Virus record (IMG/VR): IMGVR_UViG_3300042904_000302
Span: 1 to 22,127 of that record
Direction: 5' to 3' (one strand)
Source: a virus
DNA length: 22,127 nt
The translations under genes and the position numbers were made by a program. The notes under the pieces are model-generated. The model was not told the origin of the DNA. It made no database searches and saw only the letters and a program-made list of their open reading frames with translations. This document shows, one piece after another, positions 3,803 to 10,234 of this stretch (position 1 is its first letter; each line of letters begins with the position of its first letter).

Positions 3803-3906
3803 GCATAAAATCAATTTATTTTCTATCTTTTTCTTCGCCTCGATTGCAAACTACGATCAATTAAACGTTTGCGTCGATGGTCGATTTTTGGAATTTTCTT
3901 TTCGCG

Positions 3907-3939
3907 TCCTGGTCCTGGTCCTGGTCCTGGTCCTGGTCC
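3907..3939. repeat. Tandem TCCTGG hexamer array (5.5 units)
   Basis: Five and a half perfect copies of TCCTGG, which read CCAGGA on the other strand. Each unit contains a CCTGG (CCWGG, Dcm-type) site. The array lies in the divergent intergenic region between the two predicted promoters. Confidence 0.9.
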
Positions 3940-4037: not shown

Positions 4038-4322
4038 ATGTACTCTTCGCTCGCCCAGCCGGCCAAGATCAGCCGACCCTACTCGTCCGACCTGTATCAG
4101 CCGCTATGGACGAACGCCGACATCGAGCGCAAGGCGCTTGAACTGACGCGCCAAGACGGGATGAGGGAGGAGCGCAATGGCGTACGCTCGCTTGCCTGTT
4201 GCATGCGTGACGACGCCACGGCGTACGTCAGGGCATGGCGCATCGGCTGGGCGCAGTCACGCCGTCAACGCAAGGCGGGCCAGGGCCAGGGCCAGGGCCA
4301 GGGCCAGGGCCAGGACGGATGA
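4038..4322 (+). CDS. Small basic protein with a Gly-Gln repeat tail (94 aa)
   Basis: The ATG at 4038 follows GAAAGGTGGTTCGCA, like the starts in the minus-strand array; the longer frame from 3984 lacks a site. The protein begins MYSSLAQPAKISRPY, then a helical region (NADIERKALELTRQDGMREE), a cysteine pair (ACC), a basic stretch (SRRQRKA) and six Gly-Gln dipeptides before DG. The tail is encoded by the GGCCAG array at 4278-4313, so its length may vary between relatives. No family is recognised. The basic C-terminus would suit nucleic-acid binding. It is transcribed by itself, away from both neighbouring gene groups. Confidence 0.55.
   Translation: MYSSLAQPAKISRPYSSDLYQPLWTNADIERKALELTRQDGMREERNGVRSLACCMRDDATAYVRAWRIGWAQSRRQRKAGQGQGQGQGQGQDG
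4278..4313. repeat. Tandem GGCCAG hexamer array (6 units)
   Basis: Six perfect copies encode Gly-Gln repeats at the end of the gene 4038-4322. Read in register it is (CCAGGG)n, one base per unit from the (CCAGGA)n array at 3907-3939, and in the opposite orientation. Confidence 0.9.
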
Positions 4323-4354
4323 CTGGCCGATCGGCGGCCAGCGCAATCGGGCGC

Positions 4355-4389
4355 TGGCCTGTGGCCTGTGGCCTGTGGCCTGTGGCCTG
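4355..4389. repeat. Tandem TGGCCTG heptamer array (5 units)
   Basis: Five perfect copies of TGGCCTG, the first overlapping the 3' arm of the hairpin at 4336-4359. The 7-bp unit breaks reading frame, so it is non-coding. It is the third short tandem array within 480 bp. Confidence 0.9.
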
Positions 4390-4605: not shown

Positions 4606-4632
4606 CCACGCCGCCCAAGGAAAGGATTTGAA

Positions 4633-4977
4633 ATGAAAAAGACGATTCAAGCGAACTTCATGGTTTCTTCCGACATCGCCGATCGCGACCCTCACATGAT
4701 GAAGATGAGGCTCGATGACGCCAAGACCCAGGTGTTCATCCGCTTGATGGACAAGATCGATGAGGACAAACCGACCATCGTCGTCTTGAGGCGTGAAACC
4801 CATCCGGTGTGCGGTTCCATGCTTCCACCGGACTCCATTCCTTTCACGGAACACCGCCTGACCATCGAGTACGAGGAGATCGACCCGCCCGCTCCCCACG
4901 CCACGGAGTTTCACCAACATCAATTCAAACTGTCCCTTTCCCGATCCATCCTGTCCTTCTTCGGAATCAAGGTCTGA
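4633..4977 (+). CDS. Unknown protein, first gene of the rightward operon (114 aa)
   Basis: The ATG at 4633 follows GGAAAGGATTTGAA, the strongest ribosome site pattern in this phage. The protein MKKTIQANFMVSSDIADRDP is soluble, with strand-like segments (QVFIRLMDKI, KPTIVVLRRE, RLTIEYEEID) and a His-rich stretch near PHATEFHQHQF. No catalytic motif or family was recognised. The alternation of strands and helices suggests a small alpha/beta domain. It is followed after one base by a membrane protein gene. Confidence 0.75.
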   Translation: MKKTIQANFMVSSDIADRDPHMMKMRLDDAKTQVFIRLMDKIDEDKPTIVVLRRETHPVCGSMLPPDSIPFTEHRLTIEYEEIDPPAPHATEFHQHQFKLSLSRSILSFFGIKV

Positions 4978-4978
4978 A

Positions 4979-5143
4979 ATGAACACCCTTTGCTGGATCG
5001 TCTCGTTGACTTTCGCCATCATGGCCTTCGTCTTCGCCCTTCCTCTCTCCTCCGAGCGGGGCCGGCAGGACGACTTGGCCTTCTCGGCGGTCATGGCCTT
5101 GCTTTCGATCGCCTTCTCGCTGATGTCCCTTTCATGGAAATGA
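4979..5143 (+). CDS. Mini membrane protein, two predicted TM helices (54 aa)
   Basis: The ATG at 4979 lies one base after the previous stop codon (TGAAATGA), so translation is probably coupled. The protein MNTLCWIVSLTFAIMAFVFA has a hydrophobic helix at about residues 4-22, a charged loop (SSERGRQDD) and a second hydrophobic helix at about 33-51. No family is recognised. It is one of several tiny membrane proteins scattered through the early-type operons, a pattern suggestive of roles at the host envelope (superinfection exclusion, or modulation of membrane proteins); that is inference. Confidence 0.7.
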   Translation: MNTLCWIVSLTFAIMAFVFALPLSSERGRQDDLAFSAVMALLSIAFSLMSLSWK

Positions 5144-5149
5144 TTTGAA

Positions 5150-5401
5150 ATGAAAAACGTCATGTCTCAGACGGAATTCCTGTCCGACGAGGCCGCGAAA
5201 CGGATGGATATCGTCCAGATGGCCGCCTTCATGGCCCGTCTGCGATCCAGCTTGTTCCAGACGGCCGGGTTTTACGTTCCGGGTCCGTCCAACCGCGTGA
5301 TCCTGAACTTCCGTGAGGAATGTGAACGGGTCGTCTTGGAGGGCAATCCCGGCCTTCGCGTCCGCATGATCCTCGAAATCGAATCCATTACTCTCTTTTG
5401 A
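5150..5401 (+). CDS. Small soluble protein of unknown function (83 aa)
   Basis: The ATG at 5150 follows GGAAATGATTTGAA, the operon's standard leader. An alternative in-frame ATG at 5162 is possible. The protein contains AAKRMDIVQMAAFMARLRSS, an amphipathic helical segment, then GFYVPGPSNRVILNFREEC and a strand-rich end. No family is recognised. It is coupled to the upstream membrane gene (6-bp gap) and sits directly before the NUMOD-like/ArsR-like group. Confidence 0.7.
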   Translation: MKNVMSQTEFLSDEAAKRMDIVQMAAFMARLRSSLFQTAGFYVPGPSNRVILNFREECERVVLEGNPGLRVRMILEIESITLF

Positions 5402-5439
5402 CCGCCCGTAATGGAAATTTGAAACGAAAAGGACGAAAC

Positions 5440-5808
5440 ATGAACCGCAAAGTGGAATGCGTGGAGACGAAAGTCGAATACGACAGCCAAACCGACGCCG
5501 CCCGCGCCCTGGGCGTCGGCCCCGGTCGGATTCACTTCTCCATCTACGACGGCTTGCCCGTCAAGGGCTTTCATTTCAAGTTCGTGGGCCTGGATTCCCC
5601 GCCTCCGAAGGACAAACGCGGGAACAAGGGCGGCTTTTCCCGCCGGATCGCCGTCCGCCGGCTGGACGACGGCGAGGAGTTCGACTCCCTGATGGACGCC
5701 GTGCGGGACGAATTGGGACCGGATTTCAATCCGAACCGCGTCGGCTTGTTGAGCCGGGCCTTGACGCGGAATGGCAAGTTTCACGGCAAGCGATGGGAAA
5801 GGATTTGA
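5440..5808 (+). CDS. NUMOD1-like two-domain DNA-binding protein without nuclease (122 aa)
   Basis: The start at 5440 is set by AAAGGACGAAAC before the ATG; the longer frame from 5398 overlaps the previous gene. Domain A (about 4-49) reads VECVETKVEYDSQTDAARAL followed by GV-GRI and VKGFHF. This is the hallmark of nuclease-associated modular (NUMOD1) DNA-binding domains: short beta-hairpin, AA-ALGV helix-turn-helix, basic loop. Domain B (about 68-122) reads VRRLDDGEEFDSLMDAVRDE and ends GKRWERI. It is nearly the same as the protein at 6930-7136, while domain A corresponds to the protein at 6618-6917. No GIY-YIG or HNH motif is present. A regulator or a degraded homing-endonuclease remnant are both possible; the intact duplicates favour a functional regulator. 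Confidence 0.7.
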   Translation: MNRKVECVETKVEYDSQTDAARALGVGPGRIHFSIYDGLPVKGFHFKFVGLDSPPPKDKRGNKGGFSRRIAVRRLDDGEEFDSLMDAVRDELGPDFNPNRVGLLSRALTRNGKFHGKRWERI

Positions 5809-5809
5809 G

Positions 5810-5911
5810 ATGGCTGGAATGGAACTGGTCGTGCCTTCGTGGGCCGCGTTCGTGGTCGCCTGCCTCCTGATGGCCCTTCTCGGCCTTCTTCTCTGGAAAG
5901 GAATGAAATGA
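5810..5911 (+). CDS. Mini single-span membrane protein (33 aa)
   Basis: The ATG at 5810 starts one base after the upstream stop codon, and its ribosome site (GGAAAGGATTTGAG) is formed by the last codons of that gene (Trp-Glu-Arg-Ile-stop). The protein MAGMELVVPSWAAFVVACLL is a single hydrophobic helix at about residues 10-30 with a short Lys-containing C-terminus. The same arrangement, NUMOD-like gene then mini membrane gene, recurs at 6930-7320. Its own last codons supply GGAAAGGA for the next gene, which overlaps it by ATGA. Confidence 0.65.
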   Translation: MAGMELVVPSWAAFVVACLLMALLGLLLWKGMK

Positions 5912-6018
5912 CCTTCGACGTTGATTTCGTGATTTTTCTGCAAATCGTGTTCGACGCCATCCTGCTGGCCTTCGTCGTGTTCCTGACCGTCACCAAGAAG
6001 GACAAGGAGTCCAAATGA
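5908..6018 (+). CDS. Mini single-span membrane protein (36 aa)
   Basis: It starts within the stop codon of the previous gene (ATGA overlap), with GGAAAGGA about 5 nt upstream. The protein MTFDVDFVIFLQIVFDAILL has one hydrophobic helix at about 6-28, flanked by Asp residues outside and a Lys-rich end (TKKDKESK) that would face the cytoplasm. It overlaps the next gene by ATGA. Two consecutive mini membrane genes directly before two DNA-binding regulators suggest a functional link, though none is demonstrated. Confidence 0.65.
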   Translation: MTFDVDFVIFLQIVFDAILLAFVVFLTVTKKDKESK

Positions 6019-6350
6019 ATCCCGACGACCTTTTCTCCGCGTTCTCGTCTCCGCTCCGGCGGACGATCCTTCGCCTGCTTCTGGACGGTGAGCGAAACCG
6101 GCTCGGCCTTCTTGACACGCTTGGCATGTCGCCCATGTCGTTGCAGGCCGGCTTGTCCTTCCTGCTCAACTGCGGCTTGGTCTTCCACCGCCGCGACGGC
6201 CGGAACGCCTTCTACTCGCTCGATCCGAGCCGGCGGGAACACGTCCTGGCCGCCTTCGCCCTGTCCGACCGCTTGGAACGGGACGAGGCCGCCGCCCGCT
6301 TCAAGCAATCCCTGGAACCGACTTCCGAAACACCGGAGGATTCGCGATGA
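6015..6350 (+). CDS. ArsR-like winged-helix protein 1 (111 aa)
   Basis: It overlaps the previous gene by ATGA. The protein MNPDDLFSAFSSPLRRTILR shows the ArsR-family start (LF-A-SSPLRR-ILR-LLDG). A helix-turn-helix follows (LLDTLGMSPMSLQAGLSFLL), then a wing (GLVFHRRDGRNAFYSL), together covering about residues 5-72. The C-terminal segment contains SDRLERDEAAARFKQS. Only one cysteine is present, and no ELCV(C/G)D-type metal site, so metal sensing is unlikely. The second copy at 6347-6631 is a paralogue. It probably represses or activates phage or host promoters as a homodimer or as a heterodimer with that paralogue; this is inference. Confidence 0.75.
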   Translation: MNPDDLFSAFSSPLRRTILRLLLDGERNRLGLLDTLGMSPMSLQAGLSFLLNCGLVFHRRDGRNAFYSLDPSRREHVLAAFALSDRLERDEAAARFKQSLEPTSETPEDSR

Positions 6351-6631
6351 ACGCCGACAACCTGTTCAACGCCCTCGCGTCCGACTGCCGTCGCGAGATC
6401 CTTCGCAAGCTGATCGACGGACCCGCGACCCTTCTTGAACTGCGCGAATCCCTGTCGTCCCGATTCCCGGCCGTGGGTTTCCACTTGGGCAAGCTGCGAT
6501 GGGTCGGCTTGGTTTCGCTGCGCCGGGAAGGCCGCAGGAACGTCAATTCGATCTCGCTGGAGTTCCTGGAGTTCGCGAAGGCCGCCTTGGACGTCGCCGA
6601 CCGATTGGAGGATCGGAATGAACGACCGTGA
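6347..6631 (+). CDS. ArsR-like winged-helix protein 2 (94 aa)
   Basis: It begins in the stop codon of the first ArsR-like gene (ATGA). The protein MNADNLFNALASDCRREILR matches its neighbour in the pattern MN-D-LF-A--S--RR-ILR-L-DG. It then has TLLELRESLSSRFPAVGFHL as helix-turn-helix and GLVSLRREGRRNVNSISL as wing. Both copies end with a DRLE motif. Cysteine is limited to one residue, so no metal site is visible. Tandem duplication inside a phage operon suggests a paired regulator. Confidence 0.75.
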   Translation: MNADNLFNALASDCRREILRKLIDGPATLLELRESLSSRFPAVGFHLGKLRWVGLVSLRREGRRNVNSISLEFLEFAKAALDVADRLEDRNERP

Positions 6632-6917
6632 CGCTAAGCTGCGGGAGTTGATCCGCCGCGAGGAGGATCGTCTGCTGGCGATCGAACGAAGGAAGCACGC
6701 CAAGCGCGCCGAATCACTGGGGCGTTTGTCCAAAAAAAGGATTTCCGTCTGGTGCGAGACGGACAAGCGGCTTTTCCCCACGCTCCACCAAGCCGTCGAA
6801 GCCCTTGGCGTGGACAAGCGGCATTTGTGGCGGGCCGTGATGACCAAAGGCGGCCGGACGGTGAAGGGCAAGCTGGTCTGCCGGGCCGGCGACGTGCCGA
6901 TCCCCGACTTGAAATGA
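6618..6917 (+). CDS. NUMOD1-like single-domain protein with basic N-terminal helix (99 aa)
   Basis: The ATG at 6618 follows GGAGGATCGGA and overlaps the previous gene by 14 bp. The first 42 residues form a charged helix (KLRELIRREEDRLLAIERRK and onward), likely a coiled coil. Residues 40-90 carry the NUMOD1-like pattern KKRISVWCETDKRLFPTLHQ with AVEALGV and a Trp/Arg-rich recognition region. This domain corresponds to domain A of the 5440-5808 protein. The next gene encodes the equivalent of domain B, so the pair is a split version of that fusion. No nuclease motif is present. Confidence 0.65.
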   Translation: MNDRDAKLRELIRREEDRLLAIERRKHAKRAESLGRLSKKRISVWCETDKRLFPTLHQAVEALGVDKRHLWRAVMTKGGRTVKGKLVCRAGDVPIPDLK

Positions 6918-6929
6918 ATGGAGATTGAA

Positions 6930-7136
6930 ATGGATGATGAAAGGAAAAACGTGGTCCGGGGCAAGGTCCGGGTCCGCCGGATCGAGGACGGCCGGGAATT
7001 CGACTCCATCGCCGACGCCTTGCGCGCCGTGTGGCCGAACATGGACCCTTCCCGGCTCGCCAACTGGAACAGCGTCTTCTCCCAGGCGATCCGGTCCAAG
7101 CGCCCGTTCAAGGGCTTCCGTTGGGAAAGGATTTGA
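6930..7136 (+). CDS. Paralogue of the C-terminal domain of the 5440-5808 protein (68 aa)
   Basis: A start at 6918 is possible, but the ATG at 6930 has GGAG at 6 nt in the operon's usual GA-TTGAAATG context, so it is preferred. The protein reads VRVRRIEDGREFDSIADALR and ends FKGFRWERI. It aligns along its length with residues 68-122 of the upstream two-domain protein (VRRLDDGEEFDSLMDA ... GKRWERI), plus an extra loop (WPNMDPSRLANWNS). A small DNA-binding or dimerisation role is likely given the context. Its WERI-stop codons form the ribosome site of the next membrane gene. Confidence 0.65.
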   Translation: MDDERKNVVRGKVRVRRIEDGREFDSIADALRAVWPNMDPSRLANWNSVFSQAIRSKRPFKGFRWERI

Positions 7137-7137
7137 A

Positions 7138-7320
7138 ATGAATTGGTTTCAGATTTACGTCATTGCGATCATCGTGATTTCATTCGTGATGAACTGCGTC
7201 TTGGACATCGCGTCCGGTCGTCCGATCCAATGGTTCGTCAACCTCGCGATCGCCGTCGTCTTCGTGGGCGGGATGGCCTTGCTGATCGAGGCGTGGACTC
7301 GACGTTCCCGGCGGCGGTGA
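7138..7320 (+). CDS. Mini membrane protein, two predicted TM helices (60 aa)
   Basis: The ATG at 7138 is one base past the upstream stop codon, with GGAAAGGATTTGAA immediately before it. The protein MNWFQIYVIAIIVISFVMNC has a hydrophobic helix at about 4-23, a short polar loop (DIASGRPIQ), a second helix at about 31-51 and a strongly basic cytoplasmic tail (RRSRRR). It is the last gene of the rightward operon. No family is recognised. Confidence 0.7.
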   Translation: MNWFQIYVIAIIVISFVMNCVLDIASGRPIQWFVNLAIAVVFVGGMALLIEAWTRRSRRR

Positions 7321-7399
7321 GCGGATAGTTGACCGAATAGCCAAGAATCCAGAGGACGTATCTTACCTATCTTAACAAACGCGATTACAGCCGTTTTAA

Positions 7400-7452
7400 G
7401 GCGTTTTGGCCTTCCAGACGTACCCAAGGTCGTCTGGACCCTTAAAAACGCC
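7400..7452 (+). promoter_or_regulatory. Two-tier hairpin between operons
   Basis: Outer stem GGCGTTTT/AAAACGCC (7400-7407 with 7445-7452) and inner stem CCAGACG/CGTCTGG (7414-7420 with 7431-7437), separated by an internal loop of 6 and 7 nt. No U-run follows, so a classic terminator is not evident. It occupies the leader of the next gene (start 7488). A direct repeat TATCTTA-CC-TATCTTA lies just upstream (7359-7374). Confidence 0.5.
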
Positions 7453-7487
7453 CCCATGAGGCTGCATTTGCGTCAAAAAGGCATCCG

Positions 7488-9506: not shown

Positions 9507-9728
9507 ATGTTCAAGTTGTCTCCCAAGGATCACGTCGCCGTCAGCAAGACACAACGTATGGATCAAGTGGCGGTGGCTCGCGTCGGTGGAAGCGTCGTCG
9601 CCATGCGGTTCTCAAGGGGAAGGAGAAAACCAGTCGTTGAAATAGAAATGGATGTGACTTCGGCCGAGAAACTGATTGCGGAATTGAGATTCGCGATTGA
9701 TTACGTCAACAAGCCGGAGATCGAATGA
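9507..9728 (+). CDS. Small protein of unknown function (73 aa)
   Basis: The ATG at 9507 follows GAAAGGAGAATTTC. The protein MFKLSPKDHVAVSKTQRMDQ contains several strand segments (QVAVARVGGSVVAMRFSRGR, KPVVEIEMDVTS) and a C-terminal helix (AEKLIAELRFAIDYVNK). It looks like a small beta-sheet domain with a helix cap. No family is recognised. It overlaps the next gene by ATGA. Confidence 0.7.
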   Translation: MFKLSPKDHVAVSKTQRMDQVAVARVGGSVVAMRFSRGRRKPVVEIEMDVTSAEKLIAELRFAIDYVNKPEIE

Positions 9729-10234
9729 GTCGGTCGAAAAATTTCAAATTCGGTTGGGCATGGTTCAGTCCATGCAAGAAATATCGTTACAAATTGTCCC
9801 GTGTGTGGGGCGAAGGGCGAAGGACGTTGAATTGGATCATGCTGAATCCCAGCACGGCCGACGCGGAGACGAACGATCCGACCGTGCATCGTTGTTGCGA
9901 TTTCGCCCGACGGTGGGATTATGACCGTTGCAACGTCTATAACCTTTTCGCCCTGCGATCGACCGATCCAAAGGGCTTGTTGGCGGTTGATGATCCGATC
10001 GGCCCGAAATGGGATGATTTTTTCATTCGCTTGCTGGGTCGCCGGCAGGATTGCGTGGCTGCTTGGGGCGCTTTCAAGATCAACATCCAAAGCGGACAGG
10101 CGGCGAGGGTTTGCGAGGCGTTCAGTCGGGCGGATTTGAAGCTGTTCTGCTTGTCGATCAACAAGGACGGCTCGCCCAAACATCCTTTGTATGTCCCTTC
10201 GTCTACGAGCCTTTTGCCGTATGATTACAATTGA
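9725..10234 (+). CDS. DUF1643-family protein (169 aa)
   Basis: It starts in the stop codon of the previous gene. The protein has the DUF1643 layout: YRYKLSRVWGEGRRTLNWIM, then LNPSTADAETNDPTVHRCCD, YNLFALRSTDP, AAWGAF and C-terminal KHPLYV. The invariant LNPSTAD, DPT, NLFA-R, AWG and HPLY elements are all present and the length is typical. The family occurs in bacteria and phages and its biochemical role is unsettled. Its position among MazG-like and zinc-finger genes fits an early metabolic or anti-host gene cluster, but this does not define the function. Confidence 0.9.
   Translation: MSRSKNFKFGWAWFSPCKKYRYKLSRVWGEGRRTLNWIMLNPSTADAETNDPTVHRCCDFARRWDYDRCNVYNLFALRSTDPKGLLAVDDPIGPKWDDFFIRLLGRRQDCVAAWGAFKINIQSGQAARVCEAFSRADLKLFCLSINKDGSPKHPLYVPSSTSLLPYDYN

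Follow-up and report, generated by a model that had tools for sequence, protein, structure and literature searches.

The window analysed here consists of one viral record, 22,127 bp long, belonging to a tailed phage in environmental DNA. At 5440–7320 it carries eight small plus-strand ORFs (g1–g8) arranged head to tail, which the initial annotation described as a compact island of NUMOD1-like, ArsR-like and mini membrane proteins, possibly a membrane-linked regulatory switch. The locus raises the question of whether these genes constitute such a system, or a run of accessory genes whose products act separately. Downstream lies a packaging and head module comprising the small terminase, large terminase, DUF4055 portal, scaffold, and P22-type coat genes. 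The large terminase shares ~46% identity with Vibrio phage terminases and up to 61% with those of other environmental contigs. A 5′-3′ exonuclease gene (PF02739/PF01367; 16865–17767) is found within the structural cluster, between scaffold and coat, and a DUF1643 gene (E 2.4e-37) is located at 9725–10234.

All eight ORFs and their junctions were found on the plus strand with the spacing originally claimed, which is, in order, +1, −4, −4, −4, −14, +12 (or 0), and +1 bp. The gene content of the island therefore stood, but its proposed start at 5440 did not: three further genes on the same strand (u1–u3, 4633–5401), with gaps of 1, 6, and 38 bp running into g1, extend the run upstream, and the complete run comprises 11 genes at 4633–7320 (Table 1). 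Third-position G+C in g1–g7 is 0.68–0.84 versus 0.19–0.47 at the second position, and the terminase and portal genes are alike in this respect; the corresponding values for g8 are 0.79 and 0.41. Since this codon-position composition matches the terminase/portal pattern, g1–g8 are genuine genes and not chance ORFs. Codon-position G+C in u1–u3 also follows a coding pattern. Predicted ribosome-site energies are only modestly better than background, with three of the 11 starts within the best 10%. The start context GGATTTGA(A/G)ATG at 4624, 5801, 7129, and 14319 precedes four genes, including the portal gene. The repeated GGATTTGAAATG junction was considered as a mark of the island and rejected, as it is also found before the portal gene (14319); it is thus a start context used generally in this phage.

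Table 1. Positions of the genes and the non-coding feature of the run, and of actinophage genes encoding a transmembrane helix and a NUMOD1-like domain (the latter in their own records).
Feature	Position	Strand	Basis
u1, 114 aa, first gene of the run	4633..4977	+	ORF, GC3 0.75 vs GC2 0.35
u2, 54 aa, mini membrane protein, two hydrophobic segments	4979..5143	+	Hydropathy
u3, 83 aa	5150..5401	+	ORF, coding composition
g1, 122 aa, predicted tandem NUMOD1-like domains: A, ~residues 1–50; B, ~69–122	5440..5808	+	phmmer, tblastn (A); AF2, Foldseek (B)
g2, 33 aa, single transmembrane segment	5810..5911	+	Hydropathy, maximum 2.49
g3, 36 aa, single transmembrane segment, basic C-terminus	5908..6018	+	Hydropathy, maximum 2.81
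g4, 111 aa, predicted ArsR-fold winged helix without metal site	6015..6350	+	Profile, AF2, Foldseek, motif check
g5, 94 aa, predicted ArsR-fold winged helix, g4 paralog	6347..6631	+	NF033788, Pfam HTH_5, phmmer, alignment
g6, 99 aa, strongly basic (+12), charged N-terminal region followed by NUMOD1-like C-terminal part	6618..6917	+	Home-made NUMOD profile
g7, 68 aa (72 from ATG 6918), single domain B	6930..7136	+	Paralogy with C-terminal half of g1, NUMOD profile
g8, 60 aa, two hydrophobic segments, basic tail	7138..7320	+	Hydropathy
Intergenic RNA or DNA with strong structure at the end of the run, main stem ~7400–7453	7322..7487	+	MFE vs shuffles
Actinophage TM-NUMOD1-like genes	L087 2779-3165; L092 2471-2887; L093 2498-2893; L094 2486-2857; L095 1498-1872		

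Domain A of g1 matches the Paulinella protein sCTP-23166 (PDB 8b6e; phmmer E 5e-4), and tblastn recovered the C-terminal tails of two cyanophage GIY-YIG endonucleases together with ReqiPepy6 gp065. The tails of the GIY-YIG endonucleases of cyanophages MC09 and RN05-S share the pattern VxCVETGxxYxSxxxAARALGV...vkGfxFkf with the island protein. In the AlphaFold2 model of g1, domain B alone is well predicted (pLDDT ~78–90 over residues 71–122), while domain A is of low confidence. Foldseek placed 8b6e first for this model (probability 1.00, TM 0.79 by target length) and the I-TevI DNA-binding domain (PDB 1i3j) third, at low significance. The fold, consisting of a hairpin, a helix-turn-helix pair, and a closing strand, is accordingly assigned by predicted structure for domain B and by sequence only for domain A. 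Because the g1 model matches 8b6e and 1i3j, domain B is predicted to have the same fold as NUMOD1. The initial annotation had treated domain B, found at the C-terminus of g1 and in g7, as a separate domain type; with 8b6e as its top structural match, it is instead modelled as a NUMOD1-like fold with an insertion, or longer loop, between the helices.

The C-terminal half of g1 shares 47% identity with g7 (phmmer 6e-10 among ~19,000 ORFs). Against a home-made NUMOD1-like profile, g7 scored 13.1 bits and g6 10.4 bits, versus 5.1 and 6.1 bits for the best of 1000 shuffles of each, and the C-terminal half of g1 was marginal (5.9 versus 5.5 bits); by sequence, g6 appears to be a weaker NUMOD1-like member than g1 and g7. 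The Pfam scores in the window were below the cut-offs (12 bits against 22.8 for PF07453; 13.3 bits against 27 for PF20987), and most curated cut-offs for the ArsR and NUMOD1 families were not reached by the island proteins. No GIY-YIG or HNH motif, and no Pfam nuclease domain, was found in g1, g6, or g7. The NUMOD1-like call thus held up to sequence matches (8b6e and the endonuclease tails), fold comparison, and the shuffle test, as did the claimed lack of a nuclease to the motif check and Pfam scan. In tblastn searches of phages, only the NUMOD1-like matches of g1 were of note, and g6 and g7 yielded nothing meaningful. One match of g1, to Stenotrophomonas phage BUCTxx99 (E 0.7), was dropped as it is antisense to an annotated gene. 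Domain B and the junction directly after it are clearly duplicated; a duplicated module of domain A, domain B, and mini membrane protein is not claimed, as the N-terminal part of g1 and g6 gave no BLASTP alignment and g2 and g8 had a negative alignment score.

The island proteins share the beta-hairpin, two-helix HTH, and closing strand of NUMOD1 (PF07453) and the I-TevI tail (PF20987, PDB 1i3j), but differ in having no nuclease, in occurring as tandem and stand-alone copies, and in the inter-helix insertion of domain B. Paulinella sCTP-23166, the top match of g1 by both sequence and structure, is likewise stand-alone, small, and nuclease-free, whereas it is eukaryotic, imported into an organelle, and linked to neither ArsR nor an operon. 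Its family comprises more than 200 short chromatophore-targeted proteins that bind double-stranded DNA (PMC12176269), so stand-alone, nuclease-free DNA binders of this fold do exist. Control of genetic information processing in the photosynthetic organelle has been proposed for them (PMC7729196, PMC12176269). One group of short imported proteins has a conserved motif that is shared by bacterial GIY-YIG and NUMOD proteins (PMC7729196), and this group is presumably the 8b6e family.

The second component is the pair g4 and g5. The ArsR/SmtB family model NF033788 matched g4 with E 7e-14 (51.4 bits) and g5 with E 1e-12 (47.6 bits), against a cut-off of 55, and Pfam HTH_5 (cut-off 22) gave 21.6 bits for g4 and 23.6 bits for g5. 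From a two-row alignment, one of five AlphaFold2 models of g4 reached a pLDDT of 87 (the other four, 57–64), with the full alpha1-alpha2-alpha3-alpha4-wing-alpha5 order. In this model the winged HTH is framed by helices 3–10 and 71–100, as in a winged-helix fold whose dimer helices lie on either side. Of the PDB chains matched by Foldseek, 51 had E ≤ 0.001, and almost all of these belong to the ArsR/SmtB family; a joint g4 and g5 profile gave 24 matches among solved sequences, nearly all of them ArsR-family regulators. The two proteins share 41% identity (phmmer 4e-9 among ~19,000 ORFs), and their genes overlap by 4 bp (ATGA). By sequence comparison and modelling, g4 and g5 are thus predicted to be true, paralogous ArsR-fold winged helices, and the original ArsR-like call is upheld by the NF033788 E-values, the structure model, and Foldseek. 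The reported absence of a metal site was also confirmed: each protein has one Cys, and the motif check found no CxC, CxxC, two-Cys, or DxHx10Hxx[EH] arrangement in either. In tblastn searches of phages, g4 gave generic ArsR-like matches only, and g5 nothing meaningful.

Compared with ArsR/SmtB regulators (NolR 4omy, SrnR 7p6f, and SqrR 6o8k among the matches), g4 and g5 have the same size and alpha1-alpha2-alpha3-alpha4-beta wing-alpha5 fold, but differ in being overlapping paralogs in a phage run and in lacking any motif for a metal, dithiol, or As site. The coupling of the two diverged copies suggests a heterodimeric or autoregulatory repressor, and overlapping, diverged paralogs are as would be expected if the proteins formed a heterodimer or were two regulators sharing an origin. 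As read from the alignment, g4 retains little of the Ser/Gln/His pattern that is usual for the ArsR recognition helix, and g4 itself may therefore not bind DNA.

The third component is the mini membrane proteins, a call that the hydropathy of g2, g3, and g8 sustained. One hydrophobic segment each was found in g2 and g3, and two each in u2 and g8. Scans of family libraries with g2, g3, and g8 gave no meaningful match. For u1, no family was found, and no relative in viral contigs. In actinophages of Rhodococcus, Gordonia, and Arthrobacter, a family of proteins begins with a single TM helix and ends in a NUMOD1-like domain; its members are annotated as a membrane protein in some cases and as an HNH endonuclease or an HTH protein in others. 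Flanking charges predict that the DNA-binding-type domain of these proteins lies outside the cytoplasm.

In the flanking DNA, the structured element that closes the run has an MFE of −52.2 (z −4.05), and none of 200 shuffles was as stable. Its nested stem is formed by GGCGTTTT...AAAACGCC around TCCAGACG...CGTCTGGA, and no Rfam family was found for it. Upstream, a search for operators gave no convincing recurrent dyad: three overlapping matches were found, against 1.8 expected in shuffles, and the single candidate is a 9-bp dyad, GGCCAGCGC-N6-GCGCTGGCC, at 4336–4359. It adjoins three short tandem arrays 5′ of the run (3906–3933, 4277–4318, and 4355–4382; GGTCCT, GGCCAG, and CTGTGGC units), which sit in a long, apparently non-coding stretch.

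The reading we favour, at slightly better than even, is that this is a co-transcribed accessory run in which the ArsR pair and the NUMOD1-fold proteins are DNA-binding regulators and the membrane peptides act separately. The gene layout, folds, and paralogy, and the lack of nuclease motifs and metal sites, are what the analysis shows; co-transcription of the 11 small accessory genes as one polycistronic run of a tailed phage, and its timing, are what we infer. Translation of the overlapping g4 and g5 genes is probably coupled, and their products would most likely pair, as a hetero- or homodimer, into a winged-helix regulator that binds DNA, senses no metal, and probably represses its own run or else promoters elsewhere in the phage or in the host. 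The nuclease-free g1, g6, and g7, of the NUMOD1/I-TevI-tail fold, are predicted to bind DNA; they most likely derive from homing endonucleases and were recruited to serve as sequence-recognising repressors or to bind the nucleoid. The mini membrane proteins would be co-expressed and would act on the envelope independently.

A less probable reading, though one deserving some weight, is that the run is a cocktail for host control during early takeover, in which the NUMOD1-like proteins would bind the host nucleoid, the mini membrane proteins would act on the host envelope, and the ArsR pair would regulate the set. Small, basic, and hydrophobic proteins do share one run, and the amoeba Paulinella takes up into its organelle short proteins with a TM helix as well as an enlarged family of short, NUMOD-related DNA-binding proteins (PMC7729196, PMC12176269), but this parallel is one of analogy. 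It is distinctly unlikely that the NUMOD1-like ORFs are decaying homing endonucleases that lost their nuclease, with the other genes as unrelated passengers. Typically, the NUMOD1 module forms the C-terminal tail of homing endonucleases of the GIY-YIG or HNH type (PMC1564403), and g1, g6, and g7 have no nuclease motif at all. However, all three ORFs are intact with normal coding composition, the tandem and paralogous copies have kept the residues of the fold despite diverging to ~47% identity, and the ORFs fit exactly into a tightly packed gene run.

The initial annotation looked to conservation of the gene set as support for a system. Exact short peptides from u1, g1, g4, g6, the ArsR pair, and domain B were used to seed scans of viral and genome contigs; no relative was found, an absence that is provisional as such seeding misses distant copies. 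In viral-contig scans, the terminase query alone found relatives, and the portal query found none. Among the 38 records formed by the window and 37 terminase relatives, the window is the sole carrier of an ArsR-like protein, and a NUMOD1 match was found only in the window and in one other record (L018), weak in both; a gene's absence here is only suggestive, as short fragments are common among these records. An ArsR-like protein was also absent from the phages with the closest NUMOD1-like relatives, namely those with ReqiPepy6 gp065 or the cyanophage endonucleases, the Gordonia phages, and Arthrobacter phage Qui, which fits independent parts. A conserved system is thus unsupported, with nothing in favour of conserved linkage, and the pattern that the initial annotation named as evidence against one, relatives carried as unlinked singletons, is largely what was seen, the NUMOD1-like relatives lying in ArsR-free phages. 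The components are ordinary; their arrangement is unusual and, among the scans and relatives covered here, so far unique.

These results bear on the membrane-linked switch, in which one or more mini membrane proteins would keep the ArsR pair or the NUMOD1-like proteins at the membrane until a signal frees them, by analogy with SdpI/SdpR. The SdpR-SdpI pair of Bacillus subtilis, in which a membrane protein is encoded alongside an ArsR-type repressor, provides a precedent (PMC11995493). The SdpR autorepressor model is second best for both g4 (E 4e-8) and g5 (E 1e-7), and g2 and g3 lie directly 5′ of g4 with 4-bp overlaps. However, the SdpR scores (32.9 bits for g4 and 31.5 for g5) are far below the cut-off of 100. 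There is also no SdpI-like multi-span (six-helix) protein, only products with one or two hydrophobic segments, and g2, g3, and g8 had no SdpI match in the Pfam scan. Linkage is not conserved among the terminase relatives or the phages bearing NUMOD1-like genes. In favour of a switch, a TM helix is fused to a NUMOD1-like domain in the actinophage proteins (ReqiPepy6 gp065, Avazak gp45 and Petito gp46 from Gordonia phages, and Qui gp75), some of them annotated as membrane proteins. They resemble the island in their nuclease-free domain and small-gene-rich regions, but differ in having the TM helix in the same chain and no ArsR protein, and they are a poor model for a switch because their charge pattern puts the domain outside the cytoplasm. 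We consider such a switch highly improbable, and its fullest form, in which the mini membrane proteins would tether and release the ArsR paralog pair together with all three NUMOD1-fold proteins, slightly more so.

The locus is a clear example of DNA-recognition modules of homing endonucleases retained without a nuclease and duplicated, beside overlapping ArsR paralogs with no metal site. It offers a phage counterpart to the short DNA-binding proteins of the Paulinella chromatophore. If g1, g6, g7, and the ArsR pair do bind DNA, they would be small phage regulators whose targets could be read directly.
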